Positions 1 to 63,586 of a DNA stretch of 64,000 nt are shown here, piece after piece (position 1 is the stretch's first letter; every line of letters begins with the position of its first letter). This stretch comes from Methanobacteriota archaeon. Lineage in GTDB: Archaea > Thermoplasmatota > Thermoplasmata > SG8-5 > JACRNV01. Made by a program: the position numbers and the translations under genes. A model generated the notes under the pieces. The model worked only from the letters and a program-made list of their open reading frames with translations. It did no database searches and was not told the DNA's origin. Where the stretch lies: assembly GCA_016214785.1 (NCBI GenBank), contig JACRNV010000005.1:1-64000 (forward strand). The letters are read 5' to 3'.

Positions 1-267
1 GCACCACATGGTACTGGCAACATCCATAGGCATGGCTAAATGACCACTGGTCTTGCATATGATTTGACTCCTGGCGGGGCCAACGCGCGCCGCTTCGCGG
101 CGCGCACCGCCGAGACGCCATTGCCATAGACACCTAAAAACATAGCCCGGTTGGCCGGTGCCCGCTCGCCCTACATCCCCAACCTAAAAGGATGGGGAAT
201 TAGGGCGCGGCAATCATATTAATATAATAGATAATAAGGAAAAGGAGGAAAGGTTTTGGGCATTCGC
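1..267. other. Gene-free left edge with a GC-rich hairpin
   Basis: No convincing coding region is seen here. Positions 85-93 and 97-105 form a perfect 9-bp GC stem (GCGCGCCGC / GCGGCGCGC) around a TTC loop. Around 177-197 a smaller stem-loop (CCCC, AACCTAAAAGGAT, GGGG) carries the 12-mer AACCTAAAAGGA, which recurs near the CRISPR leader. The segment lies downstream of the minus-strand paralogue array, so it could hold its terminator or an unassigned structured RNA. I could not match it to RNase P, SRP or any riboswitch by eye. Confidence 0.4.
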
Positions 268-2481: not shown

Positions 2482-2520
2482 TACCTTTCCTTTTTCATTT
2501 GCTCCCTTCAATCTCATTTC

Positions 2521-28363: not shown

Positions 28364-28468
28364 CTATAACAAGTCGATCTCTTCTTCTATTCTCTTGACT
28401 TTTGGCTGCTTGCCTGCATTGGATAAGTAATCGGATTCTTTTGTGATGGAGAGGATTTGGTTATTCAT
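28364..28468 (-). CDS. Possible small protein at the end of the RM operon
   Basis: A 34-residue reading frame (MNNQILSITKESDYL...RIEEEIDLL) starts inside the last codons of the DinD-like gene, overlapping it by 8 bp, as the other genes of this operon do. It is hydrophilic and has no recognisable domain. It could be a real coupled small protein or a chance frame. Confidence 0.3.
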   Translation of the reverse strand: MNNQILSITKESDYLSNAGKQPKVKRIEEEIDLL

Positions 28469-29306
28469 CTTTTTTTAGTCTCCTTTTCTTTTCTTTCTCT
28501 GGAATGTCCAAATAATTTTCAGAAGTGGTTACGAGTTGACGGCTTCTATTTTCCAGCTCTTTTCGTGCAACTCCGGCGACGTTTCCGCCTTCTGTTGCGG
28601 CTTTTCTGTTTTCTACGAAGCCTTTTGCATCCTTGTTTCTTGCGATTCTGGTTGTGGACGCTTCTCCAAGCATCGTAAAGATAAGCTCCAGGTCGTTCAT
28701 GTGGTCTCTGAGGTTCTCTTTCTTCAACCCTTTTAATTCCTTATATTCGCTGGGCGTCATTCCAAACGTGGCTTTCGAGATTTCAGCGGTCAATATGGCA
28801 TATTCCCGCTCTGTTGTTACTTCTCTCTTCTTCCACTCATCGGTCAATTCATCTCTTACCGCTATTCCCCTGACCCTCTTCTCGACCCAGTCATCGGAAT
28901 ATCCTTTCGCCCTGTATATCTCCTTCATGCGCGCTTGGGCCAGTTCAGGGTTCTGTATCTCCTCGACCCGTTCATAGCCAACCTGTGCCAGCCACTGCTT
29001 GAAAGGTTCTGCTCGGGGAGATGGAATTGACTGGATAATTCTGAACATATTTTTTGTATTGGCGCAATCGGTAAGCCTTAACTTGCCATCTTCCGCTGGA
29101 AGTTTCAACTGTCCGATTTTTTCGGACACTTCAAATCCCTCATCTGTAAGCTTGGTTTTCAGGTCTGCCCAGTATTTTCTTGCTCTGTGACTTTCTGTCA
29201 ATGCTTCAACAACATCCACTACCGAAAACCACCACTCATCGTTGAACCAGGTTCTTCTTATTTTCCTGTCCTGAAAGACCACCAGCGATTTTTCATCAGT
29301 TCCCAT
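28461..29306 (-). CDS. DinD/Bro-N family protein in the restriction-modification operon
   Basis: A 281-residue protein. Residues about 8-110 form a Bro-N-like domain (WWFSVVDVVEALTES, YWADLKTKL). The C-terminal half resembles the DinD family end (LKGLKKENLRDHM, ELIFTMLGEASTTRIA, EGGNVAGVARKELE). E. coli DinD is DNA-damage inducible and disrupts RecA filaments; whether archaeal members act on RadA is unknown. The start codon overlaps the end of the upstream XRE-like fragment by 11 bp, so it is translationally coupled within the hsd operon. It is about 70% identical by eye, without gaps over about 220 residues, to the protein encoded inside the cas operon at 59463. Its codons are AT-rich like the rest of the island. 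Confidence 0.75.
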   Translation of the reverse strand: MGTDEKSLVVFQDRKIRRTWFNDEWWFSVVDVVEALTESHRARKYWADLKTKLTDEGFEVSEKIGQLKLPAEDGKLRLTDCANTKNMFRIIQSIPSPRAEPFKQWLAQVGYERVEEIQNPELAQARMKEIYRAKGYSDDWVEKRVRGIAVRDELTDEWKKREVTTEREYAILTAEISKATFGMTPSEYKELKGLKKENLRDHMNDLELIFTMLGEASTTRIARNKDAKGFVENRKAATEGGNVAGVARKELENRSRQLVTTSENYLDIPEKEKKRRLKKDE

Positions 29307-32395: not shown

Positions 32396-33072
32396 TACGC
32401 TTCAACCCCTCTTACATCTACCTTACCAGTAACAACATGATGAATAAGCGATTTCCGGTATTCCTCTATAAGCCAGATCTTCCTCTCCACAAGCCCGATT
32501 TCATTATCTATTCGGGCTGTCTTGCGGTCGAGGAAGGATGCGATGGCGGATTGGTCTGGAGGGGGAGGAGAAATACATCGAATTTCTTTCAATTTTTCTC
32601 TTGTAAGATGTGCAATACTTACTCTATTAACAATAGAATTGAATAAGCCATTTTTTCCGTATGCCTCAAATAGATACAGATAATATCTTGAAATCAATGA
32701 TGAATTAATAGTAACTTTATGAACAGAATTTTGAATATAGCACTCATCCAATTCATCATTCCAAATTGCAGTTCTTCCAACTTCTCCTCCTTCTGAAACA
32801 AGAAGGTCATTCTTTTGTAATTTAAAACTGATTATCTCTCCTAATGAAAACCACATTTCATTAATATCGGTTGAGTCGACTTGTTCCCATAAAATGTTCT
32901 GAGCCCTAAGGTAAGGTTTTAAAAAATTACCTCCATCATCTTCATTTTTTAACATTTTTCCAAGTACAATATTTGAAATGAATTTTAACTTATGTACTTC
33001 CCATCCTTCCGGTATCTCCCCGATCCACTCCACGCCGGAGTCCTTGTAAGAGGGATATGGTTTGAGGTTCAT
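32395..33072 (-). CDS. hsdS: Half-size type I specificity subunit HsdS
   Basis: A 225-residue protein with a single target-recognition domain (opening YPSYKDSGVEWIGEIPEGWE, later SEGGEVGRTAIWND) and one conserved helical spacer (PPPPDQSAIASFLDRKTARID). Full HsdS proteins are near 400 residues with two such halves. A half-size subunit can work as a homodimer and then recognises a palindromic-type bipartite site. The start overlaps the upstream DUF3800-like gene stop (ATGA). It is AT-rich. It could also be a truncated form of a larger gene, but the clean operon overlaps argue against recent decay. Confidence 0.85.
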   Translation of the reverse strand: MNLKPYPSYKDSGVEWIGEIPEGWEVHKLKFISNIVLGKMLKNEDDGGNFLKPYLRAQNILWEQVDSTDINEMWFSLGEIISFKLQKNDLLVSEGGEVGRTAIWNDELDECYIQNSVHKVTINSSLISRYYLYLFEAYGKNGLFNSIVNRVSIAHLTREKLKEIRCISPPPPDQSAIASFLDRKTARIDNEIGLVERKIWLIEEYRKSLIHHVVTGKVDVRGVEA

Positions 33073-34043
33073 CGTAGATATGCCTCCAAGGTATTGTTTT
33101 GCTCTGGCATCACAAAACGAAATGCATCCAGATAATAATACGCATCATTTCGATAGTACGTTTTTTCATTGTTCAAATCAGTCATCTGTTTAATTTTATT
33201 TTTTGGAAAGAAACTGATTCTGAGGATTTTTGAATCGTAGTAATTCGCTCTTAATTTGTTTAGTTGCGACCTTATGTTTCGTGCTACTTCTGATTTTTTC
33301 TGAGATTGCGAAGTCATAAAAATATTGTGCCTTATGCTCCCTATGATTAAATCGATAAATTGAATAAATTGAGCATTGTTTGGAGATGTGCCTTTTACTC
33401 TATGGTCCGAGTTAATAAACAGTATCCGATTGCTAAAAGTGATTTTTTCAGAAGACTCATATGATATTTTGTCCAGATTTTTAGTATTAAAGAAGTAATG
33501 CCTTTCTAACTCATTTTTCTCATCATAATATATATCCCTAATTTGCACACGTGTATAGATTGAAAAGAAGGATTTTATTCCATAATTGATAAGTGTTCTA
33601 AAAAATTTGTTGTATATATTTACATTCGTTGTGTCATTACCAAAAAAAGATTTATCCAGTTTATTTAAATCGACACAAAGAACATTAATAAATATCTCTT
33701 TGCCTTTACAAAAAGTATTCAACCATGATTTAGAGATGTTTATCAAAGAACGATTGACTCTGCCATCTCGAATATCTGAAAAATGAATTTCGCAGTTGTT
33801 CATATCGTGCCAGTCTCTTCTGCAATTCGCTTTATTGGGGCAATCTTCATACGAGGTGTTCCAATGCTTATTTCCTTCATTCTGGCATCTGATATTCAAC
33901 AATTGAACCAATAGATTATCTTTCTTGTTGCATGGAATAAACAATGCTCCCAGAGTAATAAAGTTACAATCATCTTCAGGTTCGATTTCATCGACATAGA
34001 TATCTAATTCGATTATGCTTTCTTTGGCGAATTCAAATTCCAT
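33069..34043 (-). CDS. DUF3800-like protein between hsdM and hsdS
   Basis: A 324-residue, AT-rich protein. The opening DIYVDEIE matches the first acidic strand of DUF3800 (RNase H-like fold), and FIQFIDLIIGSIRHN matches the family's conserved Q-ADLIAG-like helix, so I assign it tentatively there. CxxC-type and cysteine-rich spots near residues 68-82 (CPNKANCRRDW) might bind metal. It overlaps hsdM upstream (TAATG) and hsdS downstream (ATGA), so it is a built-in member of the restriction-modification operon. A nuclease or RNA-sensing accessory role is inferred only from the fold and context. Confidence 0.55.
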   Translation of the reverse strand: MEFEFAKESIIELDIYVDEIEPEDDCNFITLGALFIPCNKKDNLLVQLLNIRCQNEGNKHWNTSYEDCPNKANCRRDWHDMNNCEIHFSDIRDGRVNRSLINISKSWLNTFCKGKEIFINVLCVDLNKLDKSFFGNDTTNVNIYNKFFRTLINYGIKSFFSIYTRVQIRDIYYDEKNELERHYFFNTKNLDKISYESSEKITFSNRILFINSDHRVKGTSPNNAQFIQFIDLIIGSIRHNIFMTSQSQKKSEVARNIRSQLNKLRANYYDSKILRISFFPKNKIKQMTDLNNEKTYYRNDAYYYLDAFRFVMPEQNNTLEAYLR

Positions 34044-36055
34044 TATAACTCCTCTTTTTCGAGTTCTAGTATTTCCTTTGTAACTGCCTGAATGTCTGCC
34101 TCGATATCTTCCAGCGGTCTCGGTGGCTGGTATTTGTAGAAGTACTGGGTAAAGTTAATCTCGTAGCCAATCTTATCATTGTTTCTGTCCATCCAGGCAT
34201 CGGGATAATAGGGCTTTACCTCTCGCTTGAAATATTCCTCTATATCTTCGCCCAGCTTGATCTTTTCGCTGTCCCGAAGGTTGCTGTCAGGTTGCTTCTT
34301 TCCTTTATTGTCCAGCACGTATTCTGCGGTATCATCGTGTTCGGATAATGCCAAGACGATATTCTTGATGAAGTTGGGTCTCAGGTCGAATTTTTTCAAG
34401 ACGGTCATGACCCTCTTTTCAAATTCGTCCCAGTTCTTGTAAAGGTCTGGCCCTATAACCTTCAATGCATGAATTATATCTTCTTGTGTTTTCTTGCCTT
34501 TCTCCTCCTCGGCCAACTTTTCCTCTATATCCTTTTTATTGCTATCGGCCAGTTTCTTGAAATCGTTCACGGAATAGAGATTTTCCAGCCGTTCTTCCGA
34601 GCAGGTATAGTTCAAGCGCATCGGTCTTTCAACCGTTACCTTGGTGAAACCGAATTCTTCCTTGGGGAATATCTTGCAGTATTCGTTCTTTTTAAACTTT
34701 GAATAGAGTTCGGTAATCTTCTTGATATCCTCGTCGCTCAGGTGATTTCTCTTGTTGCCAAGGCTCTTTCTCATCTTTTTGTAGAACGATGTGGCATTCA
34801 CCAGTTGTATCTTTCCAACCCTTTCCGGGGGCTTCTCGTTGGTCAGTATCCAGACGTATGTATTGATTCCGGTATTGTAGAATAGCTGATCGGGCAGGGC
34901 AATAATGGCTTCAATATAATCGTTGTCCATCATCCATTTTCGTATGTTGCTCTCTCCGCCTCCGGCATCGCCTGTGAACAACGGGGAGCCGTTCGTAATT
35001 CCTGCGGTCCTCGATTTCTCGCCATTGACCTTCATCTTTGATATCATGTGCTGAAGGAAAAGAAGCTGTCCGTCGTTTATTCTCGGAGTGCCAGCGCCGA
35101 ACCTTCCGGCAAAACCCCTCTCGGCTTCGGCCTCAACTGTCTCCTTATCTTTTTCCCATTTGGTTCCATAGGGGGGATTAGAAATGATGTAATCGAACTT
35201 CATATCCAGAAATTTGTCGTTGGAAAGAGTACTGAATGGCCCCTTGATGTTATCTGCCTGTTCGCCCTTCATCAGCATATCGGCTTTGCATACGGCGTAA
35301 ATCTCCTCGTTGAGTTCCTGGCCGAAAAGAACAACAGTTCCCGAAGGATTGACCTCCTTGATGTAGTTCTTTGCGCTTGTCAGCATACCGCCAGTTCCAC
35401 ATGCAGGATCGTAAACGGTTCTGATGATATTCTTTTCCTTCAAACTACCGTTGAGAACGAACATCAACTGGGTCATCAGCCTAACGACTTCCCTCGGTGT
35501 GAAGTGTTCACCAGCCTCCTCGTTGGACTGTTCCGAAAATTTTCTAATCAGTTCCTCGAATATCATACCCATTTCGTGGTTGGAAACCTTGTCTGGATGA
35601 AGATCCACTCTTGTTTCGGAGAATTTCTTAACCAGAAGGTAGAGAAGTTCGGCTTTTGCTAGTCGTGCGATATGACTTTTGATATTGAAATTCTCGAAGA
35701 TATCTTGAACGTTTGTGCTGAAGCTGTCGATGAAATGGAGCATATTCTGTTCTATATGTTCCGGGTCTTCAAGCAAAGTCTTGAAATCGTATTTAGAATA
35801 ATTGTAAAAACCGAGTTGCCTGCCACCCTTATCTTTGGCAGCGGATTTTATAACGAGGTCAAGATTGTCGAATTGGCCCTTGTATTTACTGTACGTTTTC
35901 AAAACGATTTCTTTGCTATCGGCCAGTACGGAATCAAAACGCTTCAATACTGTGAATGGAAGAATTACCTTCTGGTATTCATTTCGTTTATAGGTTCCCC
36001 GTAAAAGGTTTGCAAGATCCCAAATGAAGCTTACCTTGTCTTGAAAATTGTTCAT
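34043..36055 (-). CDS. hsdM: Type I DNA methyltransferase subunit HsdM
   Basis: A 670-residue N6-adenine methyltransferase subunit. The SAM-binding motif DPACGTGG is at residues 216-223 and the catalytic NPPYG at 293-297, the order seen in gamma-type type I enzymes. The HsdM N-terminal helical domain is visible (FIWDLANLLRG, ILPFTVLKRFD). The start at MNNFQDKV was chosen because it has GAAAAGAA upstream and overlaps the stop of the small RHH gene (ATGA); a longer frame extends upstream through that gene. The C-terminal part is helical and acidic, as expected for HsdS contact. Confidence 0.93.
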   Translation of the reverse strand: MNNFQDKVSFIWDLANLLRGTYKRNEYQKVILPFTVLKRFDSVLADSKEIVLKTYSKYKGQFDNLDLVIKSAAKDKGGRQLGFYNYSKYDFKTLLEDPEHIEQNMLHFIDSFSTNVQDIFENFNIKSHIARLAKAELLYLLVKKFSETRVDLHPDKVSNHEMGMIFEELIRKFSEQSNEEAGEHFTPREVVRLMTQLMFVLNGSLKEKNIIRTVYDPACGTGGMLTSAKNYIKEVNPSGTVVLFGQELNEEIYAVCKADMLMKGEQADNIKGPFSTLSNDKFLDMKFDYIISNPPYGTKWEKDKETVEAEAERGFAGRFGAGTPRINDGQLLFLQHMISKMKVNGEKSRTAGITNGSPLFTGDAGGGESNIRKWMMDNDYIEAIIALPDQLFYNTGINTYVWILTNEKPPERVGKIQLVNATSFYKKMRKSLGNKRNHLSDEDIKKITELYSKFKKNEYCKIFPKEEFGFTKVTVERPMRLNYTCSEERLENLYSVNDFKKLADSNKKDIEEKLAEEEKGKKTQEDIIHALKVIGPDLYKNWDEFEKRVMTVLKKFDLRPNFIKNIVLALSEHDDTAEYVLDNKGKKQPDSNLRDSEKIKLGEDIEEYFKREVKPYYPDAWMDRNNDKIGYEINFTQYFYKYQPPRPLEDIEADIQAVTKEILELEKEEL

Positions 36056-36192
36056 TTCTTTTCTTCTCCCATCTGTTCTTCCATCATGATTTCGAACTGT
36101 CGGGATATTATCCAGCCCTTCTTCTTGCAAAAATCTCTGTATTTGTCGTAAAGGCCTTCATCGACATTCAAGGTAACGTTTTTCGATGGCAT
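36052..36192 (-). CDS. Small ribbon-helix-helix protein heading the hsd operon
   Basis: A 46-residue protein: a beta-strand (KNVTLNVDEGLYDKYRDF) followed by a helix-turn-helix pair (KKKGWIISRQFEIMMEEQM), the ribbon-helix-helix pattern of CopG/Arc-type DNA-binding dimers. It overlaps the hsdM start with ATGA, so it is translationally coupled, and it is the first gene after the promoter. It most likely represses its own operon, as many RHH proteins of restriction-modification or toxin-antitoxin loci do; this is inference. Confidence 0.6.
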   Translation of the reverse strand: MPSKNVTLNVDEGLYDKYRDFCKKKGWIISRQFEIMMEEQMGEEKK

Positions 36193-51430: not shown

Positions 51431-51478
51431 TCGCTCTCAAACAAACAGGATGCAAAAGGGGGAGAGCGGGAAAGCGCG

Positions 51479-54340
51479 ATGAGCGAACGGGAAATAGAAG
51501 GCGTGACTGTCGGGAGAGACACAGAGAAACGATATTCCCAGTTTTTCAGCGTTGCAACAAATGGTTCCGAACCGTACCCATATCAAGAGTGGCTCGCCCT
51601 CTCCGACGCGCTCCCGCAGCTCGTGGACATTCCGACAGGCTGCGGCAAGACGGCGGCGGTCGTGCTGGCGTGGCTGTGGAGGAGGAGGTTCGCGAGCGAG
51701 GACGTGAAGAAGAAGACGCCGAGACGGCTGGTGTACTGCCTGCCGATGCGGGTGCTGGTGGAGCAGACGCGAGACAATATTGGCAAATGGCTTGAGAATC
51801 TGAGTATGCTGGCCAAGACACCAGCCGACGGCAAAACCCCGCAGGACGATGCGACCCCCGTAGACGGCTGGGCGGCAATGCATGGGGACACGGGCAAGCG
51901 CATCGCCGTGACAATACTCATGGGCGGCGAGGACAAAGACGAATGGGATCTGTACCCAGAGAGAGACGCCATCATCATTGGAACCCAGGACATGCTGCTG
52001 TCGAGGGCACTAAACCGCGGTTATGGCATGAGTCGCTACAGGTGGCCGATGCACTTCGGGTTGCTGAATAACGATTGCCTTTGGGTAATGGACGAAGTGC
52101 AGTTGATGGGACCTGCTGTTGAAACCACACTGCAATTGGAAGCGTTTCGACAACATCGGTGGGGAACATATGGCTCTATCGCAAGTATCTGGATGAGCGC
52201 AACGCTCTCAAAAGAAATGTGCCAGACAGTTGATCGAAAAGCAATCGAAGAGAAATTAGGCAAGCCACTCGCGGCTAATACACTTTCCTTTGATAAAGAT
52301 TGTGAAAAGATGCAAAATATATTAGAGGCGCAAAAGAAAGTAACCGTTATTTCGTCCCCCCCCAAAACCGAGGATATTCTCAAAGACCATGTGCAAGGTA
52401 GCTTATCGTTAGTGATTTTGAATACGGTGCAAGAGGCACGCGAATTGTATGAATCTTTTGAAAGTACAAGCGCTGAATCGTTGAAAAGTGAGGTCGAGAA
52501 ATTACGTTGCGAAATCAAACATCCAGAGTCATGGGCAAAAGTCAGGAAAGACAGAACGCTGAAGAGTACAGACCTCAAAAAAATCGAAAAGAAAAAAACA
52601 GAACTTAACGAGAAAGAACTGAAACTGAAAAAGTTGGAAGCAATACCACCAGTAATCCTTTTGCACTCACAATTCCGTCCAGATGACCGCAAAAAACGGG
52701 TTGAAGAACTATTAGACTTTGAGCGGAAAAGGAAAGAAAATGCATGTGCGAAGAAAGAAGGAATGTCAGCACCCAACGATTTAGGTCATGGCTTAATTGT
52801 GATAACTACGCAGGTTGTCGAAGCAGGCGTTGATATCTCTTCGGAAAGGCTCTGGAGCGAAGTGGCACCTTGGGCGTCTATCGTCCAGAGGTTGGGTCGG
52901 CTGAATCGTGATGGAAAAGCAGATGGCGCGAAAGCCAATATCTGGATGCCTGAAGGTGAAAAGAAATTAGAACACATTGGACCGTATCTCAGTCAAGACT
53001 TGGAATCTGCCAAAGAACAATTAAAGAGGTTAGCTCAGGATTCTCGCAACTGCACTCCAAAGTTCGGCGAAGCGCTACGTGAGATTCCAATTGTAAGAAA
53101 GCCCGAGACCGTGATACGTCCGATTGACATCTATGAGCTCTTTTCAACCGACCCGGATTTGCACGGTGGCTTTACCGATATCTCTCGCTATGTTCGCTCA
53201 GTTGACCGAGAAATCACTGCGCAGGTACTCTGGCGCGATTTCGATCCAACAAAGAAGGACGACCCTTCGGAGTTACCTGCTCCTCTTCGCAAGGAACTGT
53301 GCCCAGTCCCATTCTACGACCTAGCTAAGTTCGTGGAAGAAGCGAAATGTGCTGCGTGGCTCTATTCGCCTGATGACTCCGAGGAGAAATGGCAGAGAAT
53401 TGTGCATCGCGACATTCGCCCGGGAATGACAATTCTTTTATCAAAATATATTGGAGGATACAATGAAAAAACCGGTTGGACAGGAATAAAAGAAGATCTA
53501 CCAGAAACTGTCTATGCTGGCATAGCAGATGACGATTTACGTGAAGACCGTTATTCTCGAGGTAAAATATGGCAAACTATTGCTCAACACACCGATGATT
53601 CCTATTCCATCCTCCAACTTTTACTTGAAACCATCCAGGCATTACCTGAGGGGGAACGTAAAACTATTCTCCAATCCATGCGTTGGCATGACGCTGGAAA
53701 AGCCCACTCTCAATGGCAGAATGCTATTGTACCATCTCCAAAAAATCCGCCGCCAAAGAGCGACGGGCTATGGGGAAAATTCGTAATGGATGGAAGATTC
53801 CGGCCAAACCTCCGCCACGAATTGGCGAGCGCTTTGAGACTCCGTCGCGAGTGGATTAATAATCCTACAAACGGGCATTCAGCGCTTGCAGTTTATCTCG
53901 CTGCCGCCCACCACGGCATCGTGAGATGCGAACTTCGTTCTAACATTAAGCCGACAGAATGGGACGAAGCATCCTTTGCTGTTCGAAACGCGTTCGGTGT
54001 GTTCGAAAAGGATAATAAAGGAAAACCGATTGAACTACCTGAGACAGACTTAGGTGATGGTGTCAAAGTACCGAGATTCAGCCTTTTGGATGAGTTGGAG
54101 TGCATGGAAGTCGGTCTTATCGAGAAAGGCGGTCACGAAGAGCCAAGTTGGGTCCAGATGGTCAGCGACATATTGGGGCCGTGCGAGGCGGGAATCGTGT
54201 ATCCGAGCGTTCCTACGGCGGAATTCAGAAAGGGTGAACATAGCGAGGTCCATAAACTCGGACCGTTTAAGTTAGCTTATCTGGAGACGTTGGTTCGTGT
54301 TTCTGACTGGCGTGCGAGCAAAGCCGGAGGAATGCCATGA
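51479..54340 (+). CDS. cas3: CRISPR-associated helicase-nuclease Cas3, type I-G
   Basis: A 953-residue protein in which the helicase precedes the HD nuclease, the domain order characteristic of type I-G (I-U). Walker A TGCGKT is at 53-58 and the DEVQ box at 205-208. A later helicase block is TQVVEAGVDISSE. The HD nuclease motif is at H737-D738 in RWHDAGKAH, followed by RHELASAL and AAHHGIVR metal-binding positions. The first 100 codons are GC-rich like the host while the rest is AT-rich, a visible shift near 51800-52080. A long upstream extension of the frame is the overlapping DUF531 region. The stop overlaps the next gene by 4 bp. Confidence 0.92.
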   Translation: MSEREIEGVTVGRDTEKRYSQFFSVATNGSEPYPYQEWLALSDALPQLVDIPTGCGKTAAVVLAWLWRRRFASEDVKKKTPRRLVYCLPMRVLVEQTRDNIGKWLENLSMLAKTPADGKTPQDDATPVDGWAAMHGDTGKRIAVTILMGGEDKDEWDLYPERDAIIIGTQDMLLSRALNRGYGMSRYRWPMHFGLLNNDCLWVMDEVQLMGPAVETTLQLEAFRQHRWGTYGSIASIWMSATLSKEMCQTVDRKAIEEKLGKPLAANTLSFDKDCEKMQNILEAQKKVTVISSPPKTEDILKDHVQGSLSLVILNTVQEARELYESFESTSAESLKSEVEKLRCEIKHPESWAKVRKDRTLKSTDLKKIEKKKTELNEKELKLKKLEAIPPVILLHSQFRPDDRKKRVEELLDFERKRKENACAKKEGMSAPNDLGHGLIVITTQVVEAGVDISSERLWSEVAPWASIVQRLGRLNRDGKADGAKANIWMPEGEKKLEHIGPYLSQDLESAKEQLKRLAQDSRNCTPKFGEALREIPIVRKPETVIRPIDIYELFSTDPDLHGGFTDISRYVRSVDREITAQVLWRDFDPTKKDDPSELPAPLRKELCPVPFYDLAKFVEEAKCAAWLYSPDDSEEKWQRIVHRDIRPGMTILLSKYIGGYNEKTGWTGIKEDLPETVYAGIADDDLREDRYSRGKIWQTIAQHTDDSYSILQLLLETIQALPEGERKTILQSMRWHDAGKAHSQWQNAIVPSPKNPPPKSDGLWGKFVMDGRFRPNLRHELASALRLRREWINNPTNGHSALAVYLAAAHHGIVRCELRSNIKPTEWDEASFAVRNAFGVFEKDNKGKPIELPETDLGDGVKVPRFSLLDELECMEVGLIEKGGHEEPSWVQMVSDILGPCEAGIVYPSVPTAEFRKGEHSEVHKLGPFKLAYLETLVRVSDWRASKAGGMP

Positions 54341-56646
54341 ATGAGATTCCGATTCCTTTGCTGGGGCTCACGCCAACGCCACTGGGTAATTATTTAGCGG
54401 CTCTCGGGGTGTTAAAAGCGGTATCTAAGAAATGGCCGGAAGCACGTGGATTCTGGCGAGACGATATATTCCATTTGCGCGGGCCGTTTGGGGTAGATGA
54501 CATAGTAAAGTACCTAGCTGAAGAGTGGGAGCCGACGCCGTTTATCCGACCATGGAATCCAGATGAAGTCGAGGATAAAAAAACTCTTGATAGCGTTCCA
54601 TCAAAGTTCGAGACTACAAGAAATGGGCTTCGTTTTAGTATCGATCAAATCGCTCAATCAGAAAAATTGAAAACTGCCAAAAATAAGTTAAAAGAGAGAA
54701 AGGACTTTTTGAATGAAAAAGGCGGTTCGAAAAGAGAGAAACAAATGCGTATAAAGGCTGATGAAACAATCTCCAAGCTTAACCTTTCTATCAAGGAAAT
54801 TGAGAAATCATTTAGTCCTAACTTGCACCGTGATAAATCCCCCGAAGCAACCGTTTCAGTCATAGATGCAACACTTCAGACATTAACTGAAACGAAGCAA
54901 GACCGGATTAACGCCCCACTCTTAGGGACGGGTGGTAACGATGGTAAACGTGACTTTATGCGTGTTTGGATGATCCAGATACAGGCGATTTATTCGCCGG
55001 GCCAGATAGAGCAATCAAAGAATTGGTTAGCTCACGCATTAGGGGTGGAAATGAATATATGCTCCCCTCTTTCAGAGATATCTGGAAATTCGTGGTTTCC
55101 AGATGCCATTAAAATACACAACAGTGGGCAGCAGGGATACTATACTGAGCACCCTTCAAATCCATGGCTCTATGTGCTTGCATGTGAAGGAGTATGTATT
55201 CTCTCAGGTAGTTCATCTAGACGATTAGGAGTGCATGCACAACCTAGCGCAATATTCCCCTTTGTGACCAATCCAGAATCTCCATATAATAAAGCGACGG
55301 TTGGTCATGTTTCTGCTGAATTTTGGGCACCGATATGGCACAAACCTGTTACTCTTACCGAGATTGCTGGCGTTTTTCGACGTGGACGCGCATCATTTTC
55401 AGGCCGATCTGCAACCTATCCACATCGCATGGCAGAAGCAATAATTGCGCAAGGAACTGAACATGGCGTGATGGCTTTTGAAAGGCACTCGCTTTCCCAA
55501 ACAACAAGTGCAAACACTTTTGAGGCATTGCCTACAGGTCGATTCAAAGTGCGTCAAGATATGGTGGGTGCATCTCAATGTTTGGCAGAACTCACGACGT
55601 GGGAAGATAAACTACCGAGAGATAGTGCCAAGATTGTTTTGGGACTACGCCGTGCATTTGAAGATGCTGTACTCTCTGTAACCGCTGAACCTGATGATTA
55701 TGTTACTTGGCAACATCTCCTTATTACCTGCGCCGAGATACACAGGCGGGTTGACCAAAACAAAGATTTCCGTAAATCTTGCCGTCCCGTACCTCCGCTC
55801 TCCCTTCGTTGGCTGAAATTCCTTGACGATGGTTCGGAGGAATTCGAACTGGCTGCGGCGGTCGCATCCATACGAGGTAATCGTAATGGAGAAGAGGGCT
55901 GCGGCCCACTACGCGGGAACATCTTTAGCGTGGATATTTTTGAACGTGCCCAATTTGCACCCGGCCAGCCAGATAATTCTTGGGCAAGTTTCACCAAGAG
56001 CCCTTCTAACCGAGTTGTTTGGTCTGGGATGAATCTAATACACGACATGAACGAAGTCTTACGCCGCCGGTCCGTAGATTCTCCTCTGACATCATCGTTG
56101 GCACTTGGCGGGCGAGTTATGTGTTCCCCTTCCTCCCTTGCGTTGTTCCTTGACGGGCAGTTGGATGATGCACGAATTTCTAAACTCATTCCAGCCATCT
56201 CACTATTGAATTGGAACGACCAGAGAGTCGAACCGTATAATTTGATGGCAGAACGGCGTGGTTCTCATAATAATGAGCGAAACGCCCTATACACGTTGCC
56301 ACGCCCATATCTTCTCATGAAACTCCTATTCCAGCCATACAATTTCATCACGCGGAAATATGATGGCCTCAAAGTAAGGGCGTTTGGAGGAAACCGCAAA
56401 TTCCCCCCGAGGGCTCCACAGGCATTGGCGGCACTGATGGCCGGAGATTTGAACCGTGCCGTGTCCGAGGTCACAACTCGCTTGCGTGCATGCGGTTTGT
56501 CTCCGGTGAAAATGGAAATCCCGACGCAATCAAGCGATTATTGCGAAAGAATAGCGGCTGCATTACTTGTGCCGCTTTCCACGTTCTACATGTCCCAGTC
56601 AATTGATATGATATGCAACCCAAAGATGGAGGATAAAAACAAATAA
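54337..56646 (+). CDS. csx17: Cas8u2/Csx17, large subunit of the type I-G effector
   Basis: A 769-residue protein with the family's N-terminal signature LLGLTPTPLGNYLAALGVLKAV. It is the Cas8-like large subunit of the type I-G Cascade, expected to recognise the PAM and recruit Cas3. A charged coiled-coil stretch lies at about residues 108-170. The SLSQTTSANTFEALPTGRF and ALGGRVMCSPSSLALFLDG segments are typical. It overlaps cas3 by 4 bp (ATGA) and precedes csb1 by 13 bp. It is AT-rich relative to the chromosome. Confidence 0.92.
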   Translation: MNEIPIPLLGLTPTPLGNYLAALGVLKAVSKKWPEARGFWRDDIFHLRGPFGVDDIVKYLAEEWEPTPFIRPWNPDEVEDKKTLDSVPSKFETTRNGLRFSIDQIAQSEKLKTAKNKLKERKDFLNEKGGSKREKQMRIKADETISKLNLSIKEIEKSFSPNLHRDKSPEATVSVIDATLQTLTETKQDRINAPLLGTGGNDGKRDFMRVWMIQIQAIYSPGQIEQSKNWLAHALGVEMNICSPLSEISGNSWFPDAIKIHNSGQQGYYTEHPSNPWLYVLACEGVCILSGSSSRRLGVHAQPSAIFPFVTNPESPYNKATVGHVSAEFWAPIWHKPVTLTEIAGVFRRGRASFSGRSATYPHRMAEAIIAQGTEHGVMAFERHSLSQTTSANTFEALPTGRFKVRQDMVGASQCLAELTTWEDKLPRDSAKIVLGLRRAFEDAVLSVTAEPDDYVTWQHLLITCAEIHRRVDQNKDFRKSCRPVPPLSLRWLKFLDDGSEEFELAAAVASIRGNRNGEEGCGPLRGNIFSVDIFERAQFAPGQPDNSWASFTKSPSNRVVWSGMNLIHDMNEVLRRRSVDSPLTSSLALGGRVMCSPSSLALFLDGQLDDARISKLIPAISLLNWNDQRVEPYNLMAERRGSHNNERNALYTLPRPYLLMKLLFQPYNFITRKYDGLKVRAFGGNRKFPPRAPQALAALMAGDLNRAVSEVTTRLRACGLSPVKMEIPTQSSDYCERIAAALLVPLSTFYMSQSIDMICNPKMEDKNK

Positions 56647-56659
56647 GGAAGGTGAAAAT

Positions 56660-57835
56660 ATGGAGACAACGAAAAAAAAGGATGAACAAAAAGACGAATT
56701 GGACAAGTTGCTGGCAGACAAGAACACACACCGGTTAGTCATCAAGGCCCGCCTGCAACCGGTTGGATACAACCCCGATACCGGCGAATGTGCGAGATTC
56801 CAGCCTGCTGGATTTCCGGAAATAGGGCACGTGATATACGACGCGCCAATTGTCAAGAAAGATAAAGATGGTAAGCTGATGCTGGATGATGAAAAACAAC
56901 CCATACATGCGACACAAAAAATATGCATCATCGATTCCGCCGCTTCGATGGCAAACCACCTGGAAAAGGTCATGTGGGATGAGACCGCTTGCGAACTCCA
57001 ACCGGATCTGGCGCATCTACCATACATCCGATTAGAATTGACTGAAGATGGAAAAGAAGCCATATTCGCAACATCCAGTATATTGCAGGATCATCGAATC
57101 GCGTCATCTTATTTCCTTGATGCAATGTGCAAGGAACCTGAGGGGAAGAAGTTCATAGATTATCTTTTCGAACAAGGTAAATTCGAAGCTACCGCGGGTA
57201 GATCGTTTATCCCCCCAACAAAACGCAAGGATATATTGAACACGCTGTTCAATCATGATCCCAACTCATTACTACATGGTGTGTTCTTCCCTCAGAAAAA
57301 GCTGGGGAATTTCAAACTTGCAAGGATGCTGACTGCATCTTTGGAAGCCATAGGCGCAGATAGAGTGTCAAGTGCTGGTGTAAAGTTTGACCCCATCGGA
57401 AAGAAACATGCCAAAGACACAAACTATGGACAATCCATATTCCAAAAAGAGGATGACGTGGCCACGAACATCGTAGCGACCTTCGTAATAGACCTTGATT
57501 TGCTTCGTTCTTTTGGTCTGGACCCAAACAAAAATAGACTACTTGTAGAACTTGCCGCGTGGAAGATCCGAAGGCTCCTGGCGCACCCGAAGTTGCGAAC
57601 TAGCTGTTTCTTGTCATTGAAGAAACTATGGCTTCATGCCAACGATGAGGAAAAACAGAGTGATTTAATCGAGACATGGGCAAACTCTGTCAGCAAGGAC
57701 ATCAAAGAAGTATTCCCGCATGGAAAGGCATTTGTCGTCACCTCTCTTAAAAAAGAGGTGCTCGATAGTGCTGGCCAAGATGATGAAGAAGACGAGGAAA
57801 AAGCAACCACCCCTGCGCCGGAAGGAACACCATGA
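56660..57835 (+). CDS. csb1: Csb1, Cas7-type backbone subunit of type I-G
   Basis: A 391-residue protein of the Csb1 (GSU0053) RAMP family, which forms the crRNA-binding filament of the effector. Family segments are HRLVIKARLQPVG, ARFQPAGFPEIGHVIYDAP, CIIDSAASMANHLEK and AVSSAGVKFDPIG-like ADRVSSAGVKFDP. The end is acidic and low-complexity (DDEEDEEKATTPAPEG). GGAAGGTGAAAAT precedes the start. It overlaps csb2 by 4 bp. Confidence 0.93.
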   Translation: METTKKKDEQKDELDKLLADKNTHRLVIKARLQPVGYNPDTGECARFQPAGFPEIGHVIYDAPIVKKDKDGKLMLDDEKQPIHATQKICIIDSAASMANHLEKVMWDETACELQPDLAHLPYIRLELTEDGKEAIFATSSILQDHRIASSYFLDAMCKEPEGKKFIDYLFEQGKFEATAGRSFIPPTKRKDILNTLFNHDPNSLLHGVFFPQKKLGNFKLARMLTASLEAIGADRVSSAGVKFDPIGKKHAKDTNYGQSIFQKEDDVATNIVATFVIDLDLLRSFGLDPNKNRLLVELAAWKIRRLLAHPKLRTSCFLSLKKLWLHANDEEKQSDLIETWANSVSKDIKEVFPHGKAFVVTSLKKEVLDSAGQDDEEDEEKATTPAPEGTP

Positions 57836-59466
57836 GTGTTTACATCAAACAAACATTCCCCCTCGGTCGTTTCCATGCAACACGCTGGGCTGAGAACCCA
57901 CCTGCCGACCCGTTCGGTGAGTGGCCGCCGAGTCCGTGGCGATTGCTGAGAGCGTTAGCGGCAGCGTGGTTCAACAGTGGACACACCGACGGGATTTCTG
58001 GTGACACGGTGAAATCGGTGTTGACTAAGCTCGCAAGTTCTCCACCAGATTTTCATCTACCAGAATCAGCACGACGAAGTGGCCCCCTCAAATTCTATCA
58101 ACCCAAGGGCAAACATGCACCAGCACTCAACAAGCAAGATACGACCCTCGTAGAAGACCATTTCATAGCACTGCCGCCTGACGAACCCGTTTGGTGGATA
58201 TGGAACCTACCGAAAGATACCCCTTTGTTACCAGAAGAAATCACCGCCCTCCGAAAGCTCTGTCTTCGAATTAATTATTTTGGTCGTGCCGAGAGCATTT
58301 GCCATTTGGAACTGACAGAGACCTTGCCAAACGGGATCAAGGCAAATGCCACGGTCCAACTCAGTCGCGCCGCTGGCAGTCGCCCCGTCCTTTGTTCGAA
58401 CGCCAGCACTTTTCAACCGGAGCATCTGCTTGAAACTACAGAGAATATGCTGACTAAGCGTCGGAGTAAACTACCGGAAGGCGCTGAGTGGCGTTTCTAC
58501 AAGCTAGAGCATCAATTCCCACCATCTCCCCCAAAGTCGGCAAGAAAAAAGTATTCTTACCCCAAAGGGATACATCATTTGCAATTCGCCCTCGGTGGAC
58601 GCGTGTGGCCAACCGAAAAATTCATCGTATCCATTGCCGAGAGATTCCGGGGATCGGTACTGAGGCAATATGCAATAATCGTTACTGGCAATCGAGATGC
58701 ACGTTTCGAACCAGGGTTTCTTTCAAAGGAACAATGGAGCGAGAATCTTTCTGGCAAGCACTACAACGGCACTCTATGTACCGGGCACGAACATGCATTC
58801 TACCTTCCTTGGTTAGATGAGGGGAATATTACACGTCTTATTATTTGGTCATACAACGCACTGACCTCCGATGAGATCGAAGCTTGTATTCGGGTAGAGA
58901 AAATATATTGGGGCGACGGCAGGTATCCTTTACGTGTCATTCCGTTGCCAGTGAAAACGCCGTTGCTAGAGTGCATGAACAGAAAAACACAAAGCATGAC
59001 CTGGGTAGCAAGAACACCGTTCGTTCCGCCAAGGTTTTTCTTGAGAAGAAATGGGCAGATGAAGCCTGGACAATCGCCATCGGACCAGCTGAAATCGCTG
59101 CTGCCCATTGAAATGCAACCATTGATCGTGGGGGTCGAAGGTCTCGATCCAAAAGGCGATGGCATGAATGGAAAGCATCCTATCAATTGGGTCGGTGTTG
59201 ACGGGTCTGAATCAAGTGGGGACCAAGGGGCACAAAATTACAAGCCATGCCGCTTTGGAAGTATTCGGGTACACGCCAAAGAGACCGCACCGGATAATCG
59301 TCGGGCATTTTATCCGGTGATACTAAGATTTTCCAAGCCAGTGACGTTACCAATACCAGCTTACGGCCACTCGTCCCACTTCGGCCTCGGCCTCTTCGTC
59401 CCCACCGATGCCGCCCCCGGACCCGGGGCGAACAAGGGGGCCCAACCGGAAGGTGGTGAAAAGTGA
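57832..59466 (+). CDS. csb2: Csb2, Cas5-Cas6 fusion of type I-G
   Basis: A 544-residue protein of the Csb2 (GSU0054) family, in which a Cas5-like N-terminal half caps the crRNA 5' handle and a Cas6-like C-terminal half cleaves the precursor crRNA. The opening IKQTFPLGRFHATRWAENP and WPPSPWRLLRALAAAW are typical Cas5-like strands. The C-terminal glycine-rich end (YGHSSHFGLGLFVPT) matches the Cas6-type G-loop. Histidines near the end may act in catalysis. The stop overlaps the GTG start of the next gene. Confidence 0.93.
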   Translation: MSVYIKQTFPLGRFHATRWAENPPADPFGEWPPSPWRLLRALAAAWFNSGHTDGISGDTVKSVLTKLASSPPDFHLPESARRSGPLKFYQPKGKHAPALNKQDTTLVEDHFIALPPDEPVWWIWNLPKDTPLLPEEITALRKLCLRINYFGRAESICHLELTETLPNGIKANATVQLSRAAGSRPVLCSNASTFQPEHLLETTENMLTKRRSKLPEGAEWRFYKLEHQFPPSPPKSARKKYSYPKGIHHLQFALGGRVWPTEKFIVSIAERFRGSVLRQYAIIVTGNRDARFEPGFLSKEQWSENLSGKHYNGTLCTGHEHAFYLPWLDEGNITRLIIWSYNALTSDEIEACIRVEKIYWGDGRYPLRVIPLPVKTPLLECMNRKTQSMTWVARTPFVPPRFFLRRNGQMKPGQSPSDQLKSLLPIEMQPLIVGVEGLDPKGDGMNGKHPINWVGVDGSESSGDQGAQNYKPCRFGSIRVHAKETAPDNRRAFYPVILRFSKPVTLPIPAYGHSSHFGLGLFVPTDAAPGPGANKGAQPEGGEK

Positions 59467-60350
59467 CCGCCGAGAGCGCCATGGTGGTATTCCAGGGGAA
59501 GAACATCCGGCGCAAGTGGCACGAGGGGCAGTGGTACTTCTCGGTCGTCGATGTCGTCGCAGTATTGACTGAGAGCACGATACCCAGGCGATACTGGGCG
59601 GATCTGAAGGCTAAGCTGGACGAGGAAGGATTTGAACTGTACGAAAAAATCGTACAGTTGAAACTGATTGCCGAAGACGGAAAGCTGAGGGAGACAGATT
59701 GTGCCAACACAGAGTCCATGTTCCGCATAATCCAGTCAATCCCTTCCAAGAACGCCGAGCCGTTCAAGAGGTGGCTGGCGAGGGTAGGGTACGAGCGCAT
59801 CCAGGAGATAGATGACCCCGAGCTGGCGATGGGCCGCATGAAGGAGATCTACCGTGCCAAGGGTTATTCCGAGGACTGGATCGAGAAGCGGGCCAGGGGC
59901 ATCGCAGTCAGGAACGAGCTGACGGACGAATGGGAAAAGCGCGACATCGAAAGAGAAACGGAATTCGCCATCCTGACCGCGGAGATATCCAGGGCCACCT
60001 TCGGCATGACCCCGGGCGAGTACAGGCGCTTCAAGGGGCTCGAACGCGAGAACCTGCGGGACCACATGAACGACCTGGAGCTGATATTCACGATGCTCGG
60101 GGAGGCCGCCACGACCGAGATAGCCAGGGAGCGCGACGCCCTGGGATTCGGTGAGAACAGGGTGGCGGCGCGGGAGGGCGGGAGCGTCGCCGGCGACGCG
60201 AGGGCGAATCTAGAAAAGAAGACAGGGAAGCGCGTTTCCACCCCCGATAGCTACCTGGGCGCGCCCGAAAGGGCGAAGCGGCTGGAGCAAGGGCGCCGAA
60301 AAGCTAAGAAACGCGATGGAGAGGAGCCCGGCGGGGCGATATCAGAATGA
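59463..60350 (+). CDS. DinD/Bro-N family protein inside the cas operon
   Basis: A 295-residue protein. The Bro-N-like domain is at about residues 5-110 (WYFSVVDVVAVLTES, RYWADLKAKL) and the DinD-like C-terminal part follows (FKGLERENLRDHM, ELIFTMLGEAATTEIA, EGGSVAGDAR). It is not a standard type I-G gene. The GTG start overlaps the csb2 stop by 4 bp, with GGAAGGTGG as ribosome-binding site, and its stop overlaps the cas4-cas1 start (ATGA), so it is made as part of the operon. An internal ATG at 59481 is an alternative start. Its relative in the hsd operon at 28461 is about 70% identical by eye. A function linking CRISPR adaptation or interference to RadA-type recombinase filaments is possible but unproven. 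Confidence 0.78.
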   Translation: MTAESAMVVFQGKNIRRKWHEGQWYFSVVDVVAVLTESTIPRRYWADLKAKLDEEGFELYEKIVQLKLIAEDGKLRETDCANTESMFRIIQSIPSKNAEPFKRWLARVGYERIQEIDDPELAMGRMKEIYRAKGYSEDWIEKRARGIAVRNELTDEWEKRDIERETEFAILTAEISRATFGMTPGEYRRFKGLERENLRDHMNDLELIFTMLGEAATTEIARERDALGFGENRVAAREGGSVAGDARANLEKKTGKRVSTPDSYLGAPERAKRLEQGRRKAKKRDGEEPGGAISE

Positions 60351-62035
60351 AATATCAGGGCGCGTCTAGTGGAGGAGCGCCCAATCTCATCCCCGCCCGC
60401 ATGCTCAACGAGTTCGTTTACTGCCCGCGCCTCTTCTATATAGAATACGTCCAAGGAGAGTTCGAGGATTCCGCGGACACCGTGGAGGGGCATGCTGTCC
60501 ACCGCCGGGTGGAGAAGGAATCCGGAGAACTGCCATCGCCGGAAGAGTCGGAGGAGGACGAGCAAATCCACGCTAAGTCCGTCCTCCTTTCCAGCGGGAA
60601 GCACGGCATCATAGCGCGCATGGACCTCGTGGAGGGCGAGGGGAACGTAGTAACGCCGGTGGACTACAAGCGCGGCGAGAAGCCGGACATCCCCGAAGGC
60701 GCATGGCTTCCCGAGCGCGTGCAGATATGCGCCCAGGCACTCGTCCTGCGCGAGAACGGGTACGCATGCGCCGAAGGGGTCATCTACTATGCAAAATCGA
60801 AGGAGCGCGTGACGGTCCCGATAACAGACGAGCTGATTGCGCTCACGCTCGAAAGCCTTGAAAAGTGCCGAGAGCTTGCAGATTCCAAGACGCCGCCCCC
60901 TCCGCTACCGGACAGCCCGAAGTGCCCGCGATGTTCCCTTGCGGGGATATGCCTCCCAGATGAATTGAACGCTTTGGCCGCATCCGAGGAATCGTTGGAA
61001 ACCGAGATAAGGCGGCTGTATCCAGCCAGGGACGATGCCGTGCCTGCCTACGTGACCGATCAGAGGGCGCTCGTGTCCAAGCGCGGGGACGAACTGGAGG
61101 TCAAATCGCAAGGGGAAACCCTGGCAAGGGTCAGGCTAATGGAGATGTCGCATCTTGCCATCTTCGGCAACGCGCAGATCACCACGCAGGCGATTCGCGA
61201 ACTTTGCGCGAGGAACAAGTCAATCTGCTTCTTCTCGTCCGGTGGATGGTTCTATGGCATCATACGTGGCATGGATCACAAAAACGTCGAGCTTAGGCGG
61301 AAACAATATGCCGTGGCCGAAGACCCGTCGAAATCGGTGCAAATCGCCAGAAAGATCGTCGAGGGAAAGATACGCAATTGCAGAACGATGTTGCGGAGGA
61401 ATTGTACCGACGTTCCCGATGCGGCTTTGGAGGAGTTGGCTAAATGGGCCGGGCGTGCCTCCGGAGCCGAAACGCTGGGCGAGTTGCTCGGGATAGAAGG
61501 TTCGGCCGGGAGAGTCTATTTCATGCATTTCGGCGGTATGCTGAAGCGCGACAGCCCTGCTGGAACGTTCGATTTCGAATCGAGGAACCGCAGGCCGCCT
61601 AAAGACCCGGTGAACGCACTTCTATCATACGTCTACGCCATTACGGCAAAGGACGCGACCGTCACGCTCATGGCCGTCGGCTTCGATCCGTATCTCGGAT
61701 TCTTCCACAGACCTAGATACGGCAGACCATCCCTCGCCCTGGATTTGATGGAAGAGTTCAGGCCGATTGTCGGAGACTCGGTGGTCATAAGTCTCGTGAA
61801 CAACGATGAGATTTCCAAAAAGGATTTCGTAATCCGTGGGGGTGCGGCTTCGTTAACTGGAGTCGGTAAAAAAACCGTGATCCGGGCTTACGAAAGGAGG
61901 ATGGATTCCCAGATAATCCACCCCCTTTTTGGGTATACCGTCAGTTACAGGCGAATAATAGAGGTGCAGGCGCGGTTGCTCTCCCGATGTCTCTCTGGCG
62001 AACTGGCTGAGTACCCAATGTTCTGTACGAGGTAA
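60347..62035 (+). CDS. cas4-cas1: Cas4-Cas1 fusion
   Basis: A 562-residue fusion typical of type I-G. The Cas4 part (about 1-210) has FVYCPRLFY, H in VEGHAVHRRVE, the VDYKRGEK nuclease motif and the CPRCSLAGIC iron-sulphur cysteines. The Cas1 part (about 220-562) has RALVSKRGDEL at its start, RPPKDPVNALLSYVYAIT, and the active-site histidine H454 in FFHRPRYGRP with D466 in LALDLMEEF. Together they select PAM-matched pre-spacers and integrate them. The start overlaps the DinD-like gene stop (ATGA). The beginning of the gene is GC-rich, the rest mixed. Confidence 0.95.
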   Translation: MKYQGASSGGAPNLIPARMLNEFVYCPRLFYIEYVQGEFEDSADTVEGHAVHRRVEKESGELPSPEESEEDEQIHAKSVLLSSGKHGIIARMDLVEGEGNVVTPVDYKRGEKPDIPEGAWLPERVQICAQALVLRENGYACAEGVIYYAKSKERVTVPITDELIALTLESLEKCRELADSKTPPPPLPDSPKCPRCSLAGICLPDELNALAASEESLETEIRRLYPARDDAVPAYVTDQRALVSKRGDELEVKSQGETLARVRLMEMSHLAIFGNAQITTQAIRELCARNKSICFFSSGGWFYGIIRGMDHKNVELRRKQYAVAEDPSKSVQIARKIVEGKIRNCRTMLRRNCTDVPDAALEELAKWAGRASGAETLGELLGIEGSAGRVYFMHFGGMLKRDSPAGTFDFESRNRRPPKDPVNALLSYVYAITAKDATVTLMAVGFDPYLGFFHRPRYGRPSLALDLMEEFRPIVGDSVVISLVNNDEISKKDFVIRGGAASLTGVGKKTVIRAYERRMDSQIIHPLFGYTVSYRRIIEVQARLLSRCLSGELAEYPMFCTR

Positions 62036-62037
62036 CC

Positions 62038-62328
62038 ATGCGAAACAAATACTTAGTCGGTTACGACATATCGGACGACAAACGGCTTAACAAAGTCTTC
62101 ACAATCATGCAGGGATACGGAGAGCGACTTCAGTATTCCGTGTTCATATGCGACCTTTCGCCGAGAGAAAAGGCCACCCTCGAAGCGACCTTGACCGAGC
62201 ATATTAATCATACAGAAGATTGCATAATGATGGTTGACCTCGGCAGTGGCGAAGGCGCACTCGCAGAGAAGATTCAATTTATTGGCATACGAAAAACCAT
62301 TCCTGAACGGCGGGCGGTGATCGTGTGA
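62038..62328 (+). CDS. cas2: Cas2 spacer-integration subunit
   Basis: A 96-residue protein with the Cas2 ferredoxin-like fold: MRNKYLVGYDISDDKRLNKV with the conserved aspartate at residue 10, then QYSVFICDLSP, and the C-terminal strand ERRAVIV. It starts 2 bp after the cas4-cas1 stop and is the last cas gene before the array. Cas2 bridges two Cas1 dimers during spacer integration. Confidence 0.95.
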   Translation: MRNKYLVGYDISDDKRLNKVFTIMQGYGERLQYSVFICDLSPREKATLEATLTEHINHTEDCIMMVDLGSGEGALAEKIQFIGIRKTIPERRAVIV

Positions 62329-62663: not shown

Positions 62664-63570
62664 GTTTCCACGGATGAAAATCCGTGGCCCCATTGAAGCC
62701 CCGCTTCTTTTCGCTTTCCGTGCTGGTCGCCCTAGCGTTTCCACGGATGAAAATCCGTGGCCCCATTGAAGCAAACCCGTTCGGCTGTATTCGACCCTAA
62801 CACGGCGTGTTTCCACGGATGAAAATCCGTGGCCCCATTGAAGCCAGGGCACTGCCGCCGGCGCCGGCAATGTCACGTGCAGTTTCCACGGATGAAAATC
62901 CGTGGCCCCATTGAAGCCTTGAATTGGAAAGTCATAGTTGGGTAAATGCCATGGTTTCCACGGATGAAAATCCGTGGCCCCATTGAAGCCTGCGCCCCCG
63001 CCGACGAGGGCAGGGAGGAACTGCCCGTTTCCACGGATGAAAATCCGTGGCCCCATTGAAGCGGGCCATCGGCGGGGGCGAGCGCCAAGCCCGACCTGGT
63101 TTCCACGGATGAAAATCCGTGGCCCCATTGAAGCCTGCGGGACGACCAGTCCGCGAGCTTGTCTGGTCGCGTTTCCACGGATGAAAATCCGTGGCCCCAT
63201 TGAAGCTTTGGAAGGTGCCGCCCAACGCCGCCTCCAGGGATGGTTTCCACGGATGAAAATCCGTGGCCCCATTGAAGCACCGGGTTGATGAGCGCGACCG
63301 TCCACTTCAGGACTTCCGTTTCCACGGATGAAAATCCGTGGCCCCATTGAAGCATTATTCGAGGAATAAATATTTCGGCGTGAGATAAAAGTTTCCACGG
63401 ATGAAAATCCGTGGCCCCATTGAAGCTCAGATTGAAATAATCGCAAATGGAAATAAAACAAGTTTCCACGGATGAAAATCCGTGGCCCCATTGAAGCAGG
63501 TGGTAATGGCGGGCTCACTGGGAGCTACCGAGCCCGTTTCCACGGATGAAAATCCGTGGCCCCCATTGTG
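62664..63570 (+). CRISPR. CRISPR array, 13 repeats and 12 spacers
   Basis: The 36-bp repeat starts GTTTCCACGGAT and ends CCCCATTGAAGC. Repeat starts are 62664, 62737, 62809, 62882, 62954, 63027, 63099, 63171, 63243, 63318, 63391, 63462 and 63536. Spacers are 35-39 bp. Each repeat contains CCACGGAT-GAAA-ATCCGTGG, an 8-bp perfect stem with a GNRA loop. The final copy has an extra C and a changed end (CCCCCATTGTG), marking the trailer end, so the leader is on the cas2 side and transcription runs along the plus strand. Repeats 1-12 look identical. It serves the adjacent type I-G genes. Confidence 0.97.
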
Positions 63571-63586
63571 AATAGTTGTTTCTATC

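Follow-up and report, generated by a model that had tools for sequence, protein, structure and literature searches.

Genomic organization of the type I-G operon

The window, i.e. the whole stretch of 64,000 nucleotides analysed here, carries a complete type I-G CRISPR system in which cas3g, csx17, csb1, csb2, dinD1, the fused cas4-cas1 gene and cas2 are followed by a CRISPR array (Table 1). The gene dinD1 is an open frame encoding 295 aa from a GTG start codon. Its location between csb2 and cas4-cas1, as described in an earlier note on this DNA, was confirmed, including the 4-bp overlaps with csb2 (GTGA, 59463-59466) and with cas4-cas1 (ATGA, 60347-60350). These joints leave no space for a promoter or terminator, and co-translation of csb2, dinD1 and cas4-cas1 is therefore the natural reading of the sequence; the placement of dinD1 in the CRISPR operon, in a frame apparently fit for translation together with its neighbours, was thus correctly recognized before. 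A paralogue, dinD2, which the earlier note does not mention, adjoins a type I restriction-modification (R-M) operon elsewhere in the window.

Table 1. Features of the type I-G CRISPR locus and the type I R-M locus in the window
Feature	Position	Strand	Remarks
cas3g	51473..54340	+	NCBIfam TIGR02621, 624 bits; likely start 51473, open frame from 51212
csx17/cas8g1	54337..56646	+	NCBIfam TIGR04113, 427 bits
csb1/cas7g	56660..57835	+	NCBIfam TIGR02570 (43 bits), Pfam PF09617
csb2	57832..59466	+	NCBIfam TIGR02165, 97 bits; final ~20 codons form a GC-rich tail past the conserved GLGxFxP end (alignment with 7 relatives)
dinD1	59463..60350	+	Bro-N and DinD-like C-terminal domain, PADLOC PDC-S13
cas4-cas1 fusion (Cas4g/Cas1g)	60347..62035	+	NCBIfam NF049935, 785 bits
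cas2	62038..62328	+	Pfam PF09827, NCBIfam TIGR01573
CRISPR array	62664..63575	not assigned (.)	13 repeats, the last degenerate
Type I R-M operon (hsdM - unknown 324-aa gene - hsdS - hsdR)	29438..36130	-	PADLOC MTase_I, Specificity_I and REase_I matches
hsdM	36130-34043	-	
324-aa gene between hsdM and hsdS	34043-33069	-	without PADLOC match
hsdS	33072-32395	-	225 aa, roughly half as long as usual
hsdR	32395-29438	-	
dinD2	28461..29306	-	paralogue, 69% identical to dinD1, directly downstream of hsdR

Domain composition and predicted fold

The sole Pfam domain found in the dinD1 protein is Bro-N (PF02498), which spans residues 14-106 (E 7e-10, 39.8 bits compared to a gathering score of 25.6). Residues 1-279 align with positions 1-281 of the 286 positions of PADLOC model PDLC04920 (E 2e-120), which assigns the protein to PDC-S13 (models PDLC04918-04920). 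In contrast to the operon-embedded dinD1, PDC-S13 is listed by PADLOC as a stand-alone candidate phage-defence single gene; in the open-access literature, we found neither PDC-S13 by name nor DinD/PDC-S13 within cas operons.

The C-terminal domain is shared with E. coli DinD, which PADLOC likewise places in PDC-S13 and which is counted among the RecA-filament regulators (PMC4457935). Residues 122-250 of E. coli DinD, i.e. its C-terminal half, match PDLC04920 (E 2e-16) and, conversely, the curated DinD model NF008573 weakly matches relatives of the dinD1 protein at the C-terminus, as exemplified by the relative at locus L154 with 25.6 bits for the C-terminal half only, compared to 488 bits for E. 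coli DinD. However, the dinD1 protein itself gave no match to NF008573 (cut-off 242 bits) in NCBIfam, its pairwise similarity to E. coli DinD is marginal (BLASTP E 0.008), and the two proteins correspond to different PDC-S13 models; furthermore, E. coli dinD is located outside any defence operon. In an hhalign comparison of the DinD-type C-terminal domain the KGL..DHM..EL motif was aligned, with a probability of only 28%. On the basis of the C-terminal matches in both directions and the lack of an NF008573 match, the protein is therefore DinD-like through its C-terminal domain, and the candidate assignment as a strict E. coli DinD orthologue was rejected. Of the domain signatures reported earlier, Bro-N and a DinD-like, albeit distant, C-terminus were thus recovered, but not DinD in the strict sense.

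An AlphaFold2 model calculated from 124 relatives (mean pLDDT 88) predicts an N-terminal Bro-N winged-helix domain and a helical DinD-like C-terminal domain. The significant PDB matches of this model in Foldseek comprise one group only, the two-domain DNA-damage protein DdrC of Deinococcus radiodurans, which is matched as a whole chain with a best E of 6.6e-6 and a probability of 1.0. The TM scores of 0.3-0.5 and the high rmsd are due to the different orientation of the two flexible domains. Sequence similarity to DdrC is not detectable: PDB sequence searches gave nothing, and the profile of the 124 relatives did not reach the DdrC chain. Because of these TM scores and the failure of sequence profiles to find DdrC, the likeness is considered a lead on the fold rather than proof of homology. 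DdrC has been reported from Deinococcaceae only, binds ssDNA and dsDNA, shields DNA against nucleases and anneals ssDNA strands (PMC5436757).

Occurrence in type I-G, type I-C and R-M loci

Among the 26 type I-G loci sampled, dinD was detected in that of the window alone. It was not detected in any of the 12 other type I-G cas4-cas1 loci above the cut-off in 250 genomes of the class (at least two of them on short contigs) nor, among the matches listed, on the contigs of any of the 13 type I-G loci in 297 Desulfobacterota genomes; in same-order genomes other than that of the window, no type I-G locus was found. A conserved type I-G subunit is ruled out by these 25 loci, and the gene can no longer be regarded as a conserved type I-G component. 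The absence of dinD from related type I-G loci had been named beforehand as one part of a possible refutation, and this part corresponds to what was observed.

A significant association of the dinD family with cas operons was found elsewhere, namely with type I-C systems in Desulfobacterota. Already among the best 80 relatives, taken without regard to context, four reside in type I-C operons, all from Desulfobacterota-like bacteria. In a context-blind Desulfobacterota sample with one genome per species and many drafts, a type I-C cas1 is found at a distance of no more than 12 kb from seven of the 31 full-length copies, compared to 0.1 expected when random placement in 3.3-Mb genomes is presumed (Poisson P about 2e-11). 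Related to the 65 Desulfobacterota genomes with a type I-C cas1, seven (about one in nine) contain dinD in or beside the cas locus, the centre genome, which had been picked for its match, being omitted; one more genome (G354, L245) retains a 74-residue dinD remnant between cas7 and cas4. Within type I-C operons, dinD is found in L126, L152, L154, L221, L224 and L228, arranged as cas7-dinD-cas4 (L154, L228), cas4-dinD-cas1 (L126, L152, L224 and, as a pseudogene, L120) or cas4-dinD-rhuM-cas4-cas1 (L221). In L205, L217, L225 and L227 dinD precedes all cas genes that were detected, at a distance from cas3 of up to 1.6 kb (L217), and these copies are candidate operon members. All intact cas-associated copies share the strand of the cas genes. 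For the window locus alone the association with cas genes could be chance; for the family it is not.

Type I R-M genes are neighbours of dinD2 in the window and of the copies in L122, L127, L193, L223 and L233, with the order hsdM-dinD-hsdS-hsdR in L223. A related arrangement is the DinD-HsdS fusion of Bibersteinia trehalosi, in which a DinD relative and the specificity subunit of a type I R-M system are physically linked (PMC4996451) and the N-terminal part of which is also contained in the PADLOC Specificity_I model PDLC03083; unlike dinD1, it concerns R-M rather than CRISPR and a DinD of the E. coli type. The repeated entry of the family into CRISPR and restriction operons of bacteria suggests that it works with DNA-cutting immune systems.

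On the other hand, neither cas nor hsd neighbours were detected for about 100 of the 124 aligned family members, and the protein can therefore do without a defence system; contexts were called by tblastn with few queries, by which distant hsd or cas genes may be overlooked, and the defence-linked share is a lower bound. The genes flanking 74 copies from archaea and candidate phyla are a mixture of housekeeping genes, which rules out a general defence-island gene and confines the defence link to some clades, and archaeal genomes contain up to six dinD copies each. In a same-order relative (L067, 2670-9365) dinD is accompanied by rhuM, by an AAA/DUF4143 gene and by a toxin gene of the AbiEii type, and in L075 AbiEii is likewise found upstream. 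Candidatus Methanoperedens BLZ2 (L083, 510-1996) carries dinD copies, complete and broken, in tandem. With respect to a phage origin, a pattern search of 2.9 million viral contigs detected no relative, and phage records gave four weak, partial-to-full matches; a phage-borne gene or an anti-CRISPR finds no support in either.

Phylogeny, base composition and probable insertion

In a tree of the 124 proteins, 15 Desulfobacterota sequences form a clade (SH-aLRT 95) which includes ten cas-linked and three R-M-linked members, and one bacterial lineage thus apparently moves between defence operons. The dinD1 protein is placed outside this bacterial cas-linked clade among lone archaeal genes (nearest L065 and L064) and is also separated from dinD2. 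The cas label changes at least seven times in the tree, which, together with the position of dinD1, rules out a single ancient gain in cas operons; the window case is therefore probably an independent entry. Between close pairs dN/dS is about 0.05, including L217/L225, which are both cas-linked, and the protein is thus under strong purifying selection in the bacterial relatives.

The GC content at third codon positions (GC3) is 0.43-0.51 from cas3 to csb2 (csb2 body 0.49), 0.78 in dinD1, 0.73 and 0.67 in the cas4 and cas1 halves of the fusion and 0.56 in cas2, compared to 0.48 in dinD2 and 0.54 in hsdM/hsdR. Since dinD1 is similar to cas4 and dinD2 to the hsd genes, each copy in the window resembles its own defence neighbour. 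The single GC3 change point of the cas operon is found at 59364 (log-likelihood gain 80.6, compared to a maximum of 8.8 in 300 shuffles), which coincides with the end of the conserved part of csb2 and not with the start of dinD1. The composition places dinD1 with cas4-cas1 and apart from the effector genes. The whole adaptation module may have been swapped in from a Cas8g2-type I-G locus; the nearest Cas4-Cas1 relatives by tree path, in a tree without resolution, belong to Cas8g2-type I-G loci or stand beside a csb2 of that type.

The 4-bp overlaps had been taken in the earlier note as strong evidence that dinD1 was not dropped in recently, an interpretation that the reading frames do not bear out. 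In relatives, the conserved GLGxFxP motif of csb2 is followed by 0 to about 10 residues, in contrast to 20 GC-rich codons in the window, which run up to a stop inside the dinD1 start. The dinD1 protein, in turn, has the longest C-terminal tail of the 124 aligned relatives, 30 residues past the conserved NYL motif compared to a median of 14, and this tail extends to a stop inside the cas4 start. Similarly, the tail of the type I-C dinD of Geobacter argillaceus (L126) extends to an ATGA overlap with cas1. In L058 and L059 the csb2 stop directly overlaps the cas4-cas1 start as ATGA. Long tails on both proteins are what an insertion between csb2 and its old stop would give, and both overlaps therefore look like by-products of an insertion where csb2 and cas4 were already coupled; they speak well for co-translation but do not indicate age. 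Transposon-type flanks were not found at dinD1, where inverted or direct repeats do not exceed short matches at chance level.

Functional implications

Type I CRISPR systems (Cas3) and type I R-M systems (HsdR) both use a DNA-translocating helicase-nuclease. To our knowledge, little is known about how the ssDNA and breaks produced by Cas3 and HsdR are handled and how phages that have been cut escape by recombination. We tentatively propose, with somewhat less than even confidence, that the dinD1 protein is a DNA-end- or ssDNA-binding accessory of DNA-cutting operons which restrains recombinase loading or end processing. The modelled DdrC-like fold suggests binding of DNA ends and renders a function on ssDNA or at such ends plausible, and restraint of a recombinase is suggested by analogy with E. 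coli DinD; the RecA/RadA link raised in the earlier note and any effect of dinD1 on CRISPR are likewise inferences. According to this scenario, dinD1 would have entered the type I-G operon where its effector genes meet the adaptation genes and would now be transcribed and translated with Cas4-Cas1. The same family has repeatedly entered joints of this kind in type I-C operons as well as that between hsdM and hsdS in type I R-M operons. Cas3 or HsdR, as the common factor of type I-C, type I-G and type I R-M, leaves ssDNA and DNA breaks, which a DdrC/DinD-like protein from the same transcript might reach first. By binding ssDNA or broken ends, it could limit recombinase loading or end processing there, such that cut invader DNA would not be rescued or cut host DNA would be held in check. 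The broader idea that DNA-translocating defence nucleases have a partner in common in PDC-S13/DinD, which joins type I CRISPR (I-C, I-G) and type I R-M, handles DNA ends or ssDNA and separates interference from recombination, is less likely than not.

The main rival to a DNA-end- or ssDNA-binding accessory is a passenger, i.e. a mobile or shuffled dinD which is tolerated at the joints of often-recombining defence loci, has a housekeeping or defence role of its own and does nothing for CRISPR. We regard this as a real, if minority, possibility, given that most relatives are lone genes next to miscellaneous genes, that a single archaeal genome can contain as many as six copies, that the read-through tails in the window point to insertion, that rhuM, fic and duplicated or truncated cas4 genes ride at the same joints, and that the pseudogene in Smithella (L120) and the remnant in G354 indicate that loss from cas operons is possible. 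However, the placement is far from random, every intact cas-associated copy is on the cas strand, and the supported clade of 15, with its ten cas-linked and three R-M-linked copies, passes from one defence operon to the next.

Alternatively, Bro-N might tune expression of the operon by binding its promoter or an RNA polymerase partner, in the manner of phage Bro-N/Ant antirepressors acting on lysogeny genes. The dinD1 protein indeed has Bro-N/antirepressor-like profile matches and viral repressor/antirepressor proteins as structural neighbours, but its phage-regulator matches are weak, its C-terminal domain is DinD/DdrC-like and not of the KilA-C or Ant-C type, and dinD is mostly found in the middle or at the end of operons and not at the front, which makes a regulator unlikely. 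An accessory of adaptation, which holds or anneals ssDNA or DNA ends for Cas4-Cas1-Cas2 and feeds prespacers, would agree with the cas4-cas1-like composition of dinD1, with the direct neighbourhood of dinD to cas4 or cas1, which is seen in L126, L152, L154, L221, L224 and L228 as well as in the window, and with the annealing of ssDNA by DdrC (PMC5436757). We nevertheless consider such a role very unlikely, as the copies in L205, L217, L225 and L227 precede the first cas gene and stand apart from the adaptation genes, and as the family also occurs in R-M operons, which lack adaptation. A family akin to RecA-filament regulators, with a DdrC-like fold and a repeated presence in Cas3 and HsdR operons, would provide a direct handle on the handling of cut DNA, and its role is testable, since there are cultured relatives with a type I-C dinD, such as Geobacter argillaceus.

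Other genes at the cas operon joints

The effector/adaptation joint of cas operons takes up accessory genes (dinD, rhuM, fic) which are also found in type I R-M operons. RhuM-like genes, another type I R-M-typical family in the same hotspot as dinD, are present at the cas7/cas4 or cas4/cas4 joint of type I-C operons in L126 (7686-8720) and L227 (14189-15220), in both cases between cas7 and cas4, and in L221 (9712-10125). Genes for RhuM have also been noted, without function, within the type II-C cas operon of B. fragilis (PMC5704556); as with dinD, a type I R-M-typical gene is found there between cas genes, but RhuM belongs to an unrelated family. The Smithella type I-C locus L120 (7675-9988) shows the order truncated cas4, fic, full cas4, dinD with premature stops and cas1, which looks like an insertion with partial cas4 duplication, and in L221 two cas4 genes similarly flank dinD and rhuM. 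In L120, the type I-C adaptation genes are also immediately preceded by a region (10-4434) which encodes a Cas12-like protein of 870 aa together with a separate set of cas4, cas1 and cas2. In Geobacter argillaceus (L126, 8732-9294), a small gene pair which by eye appears MazF-like and ribbon-helix-helix-like is located on the opposite (-) strand between rhuM and cas4.
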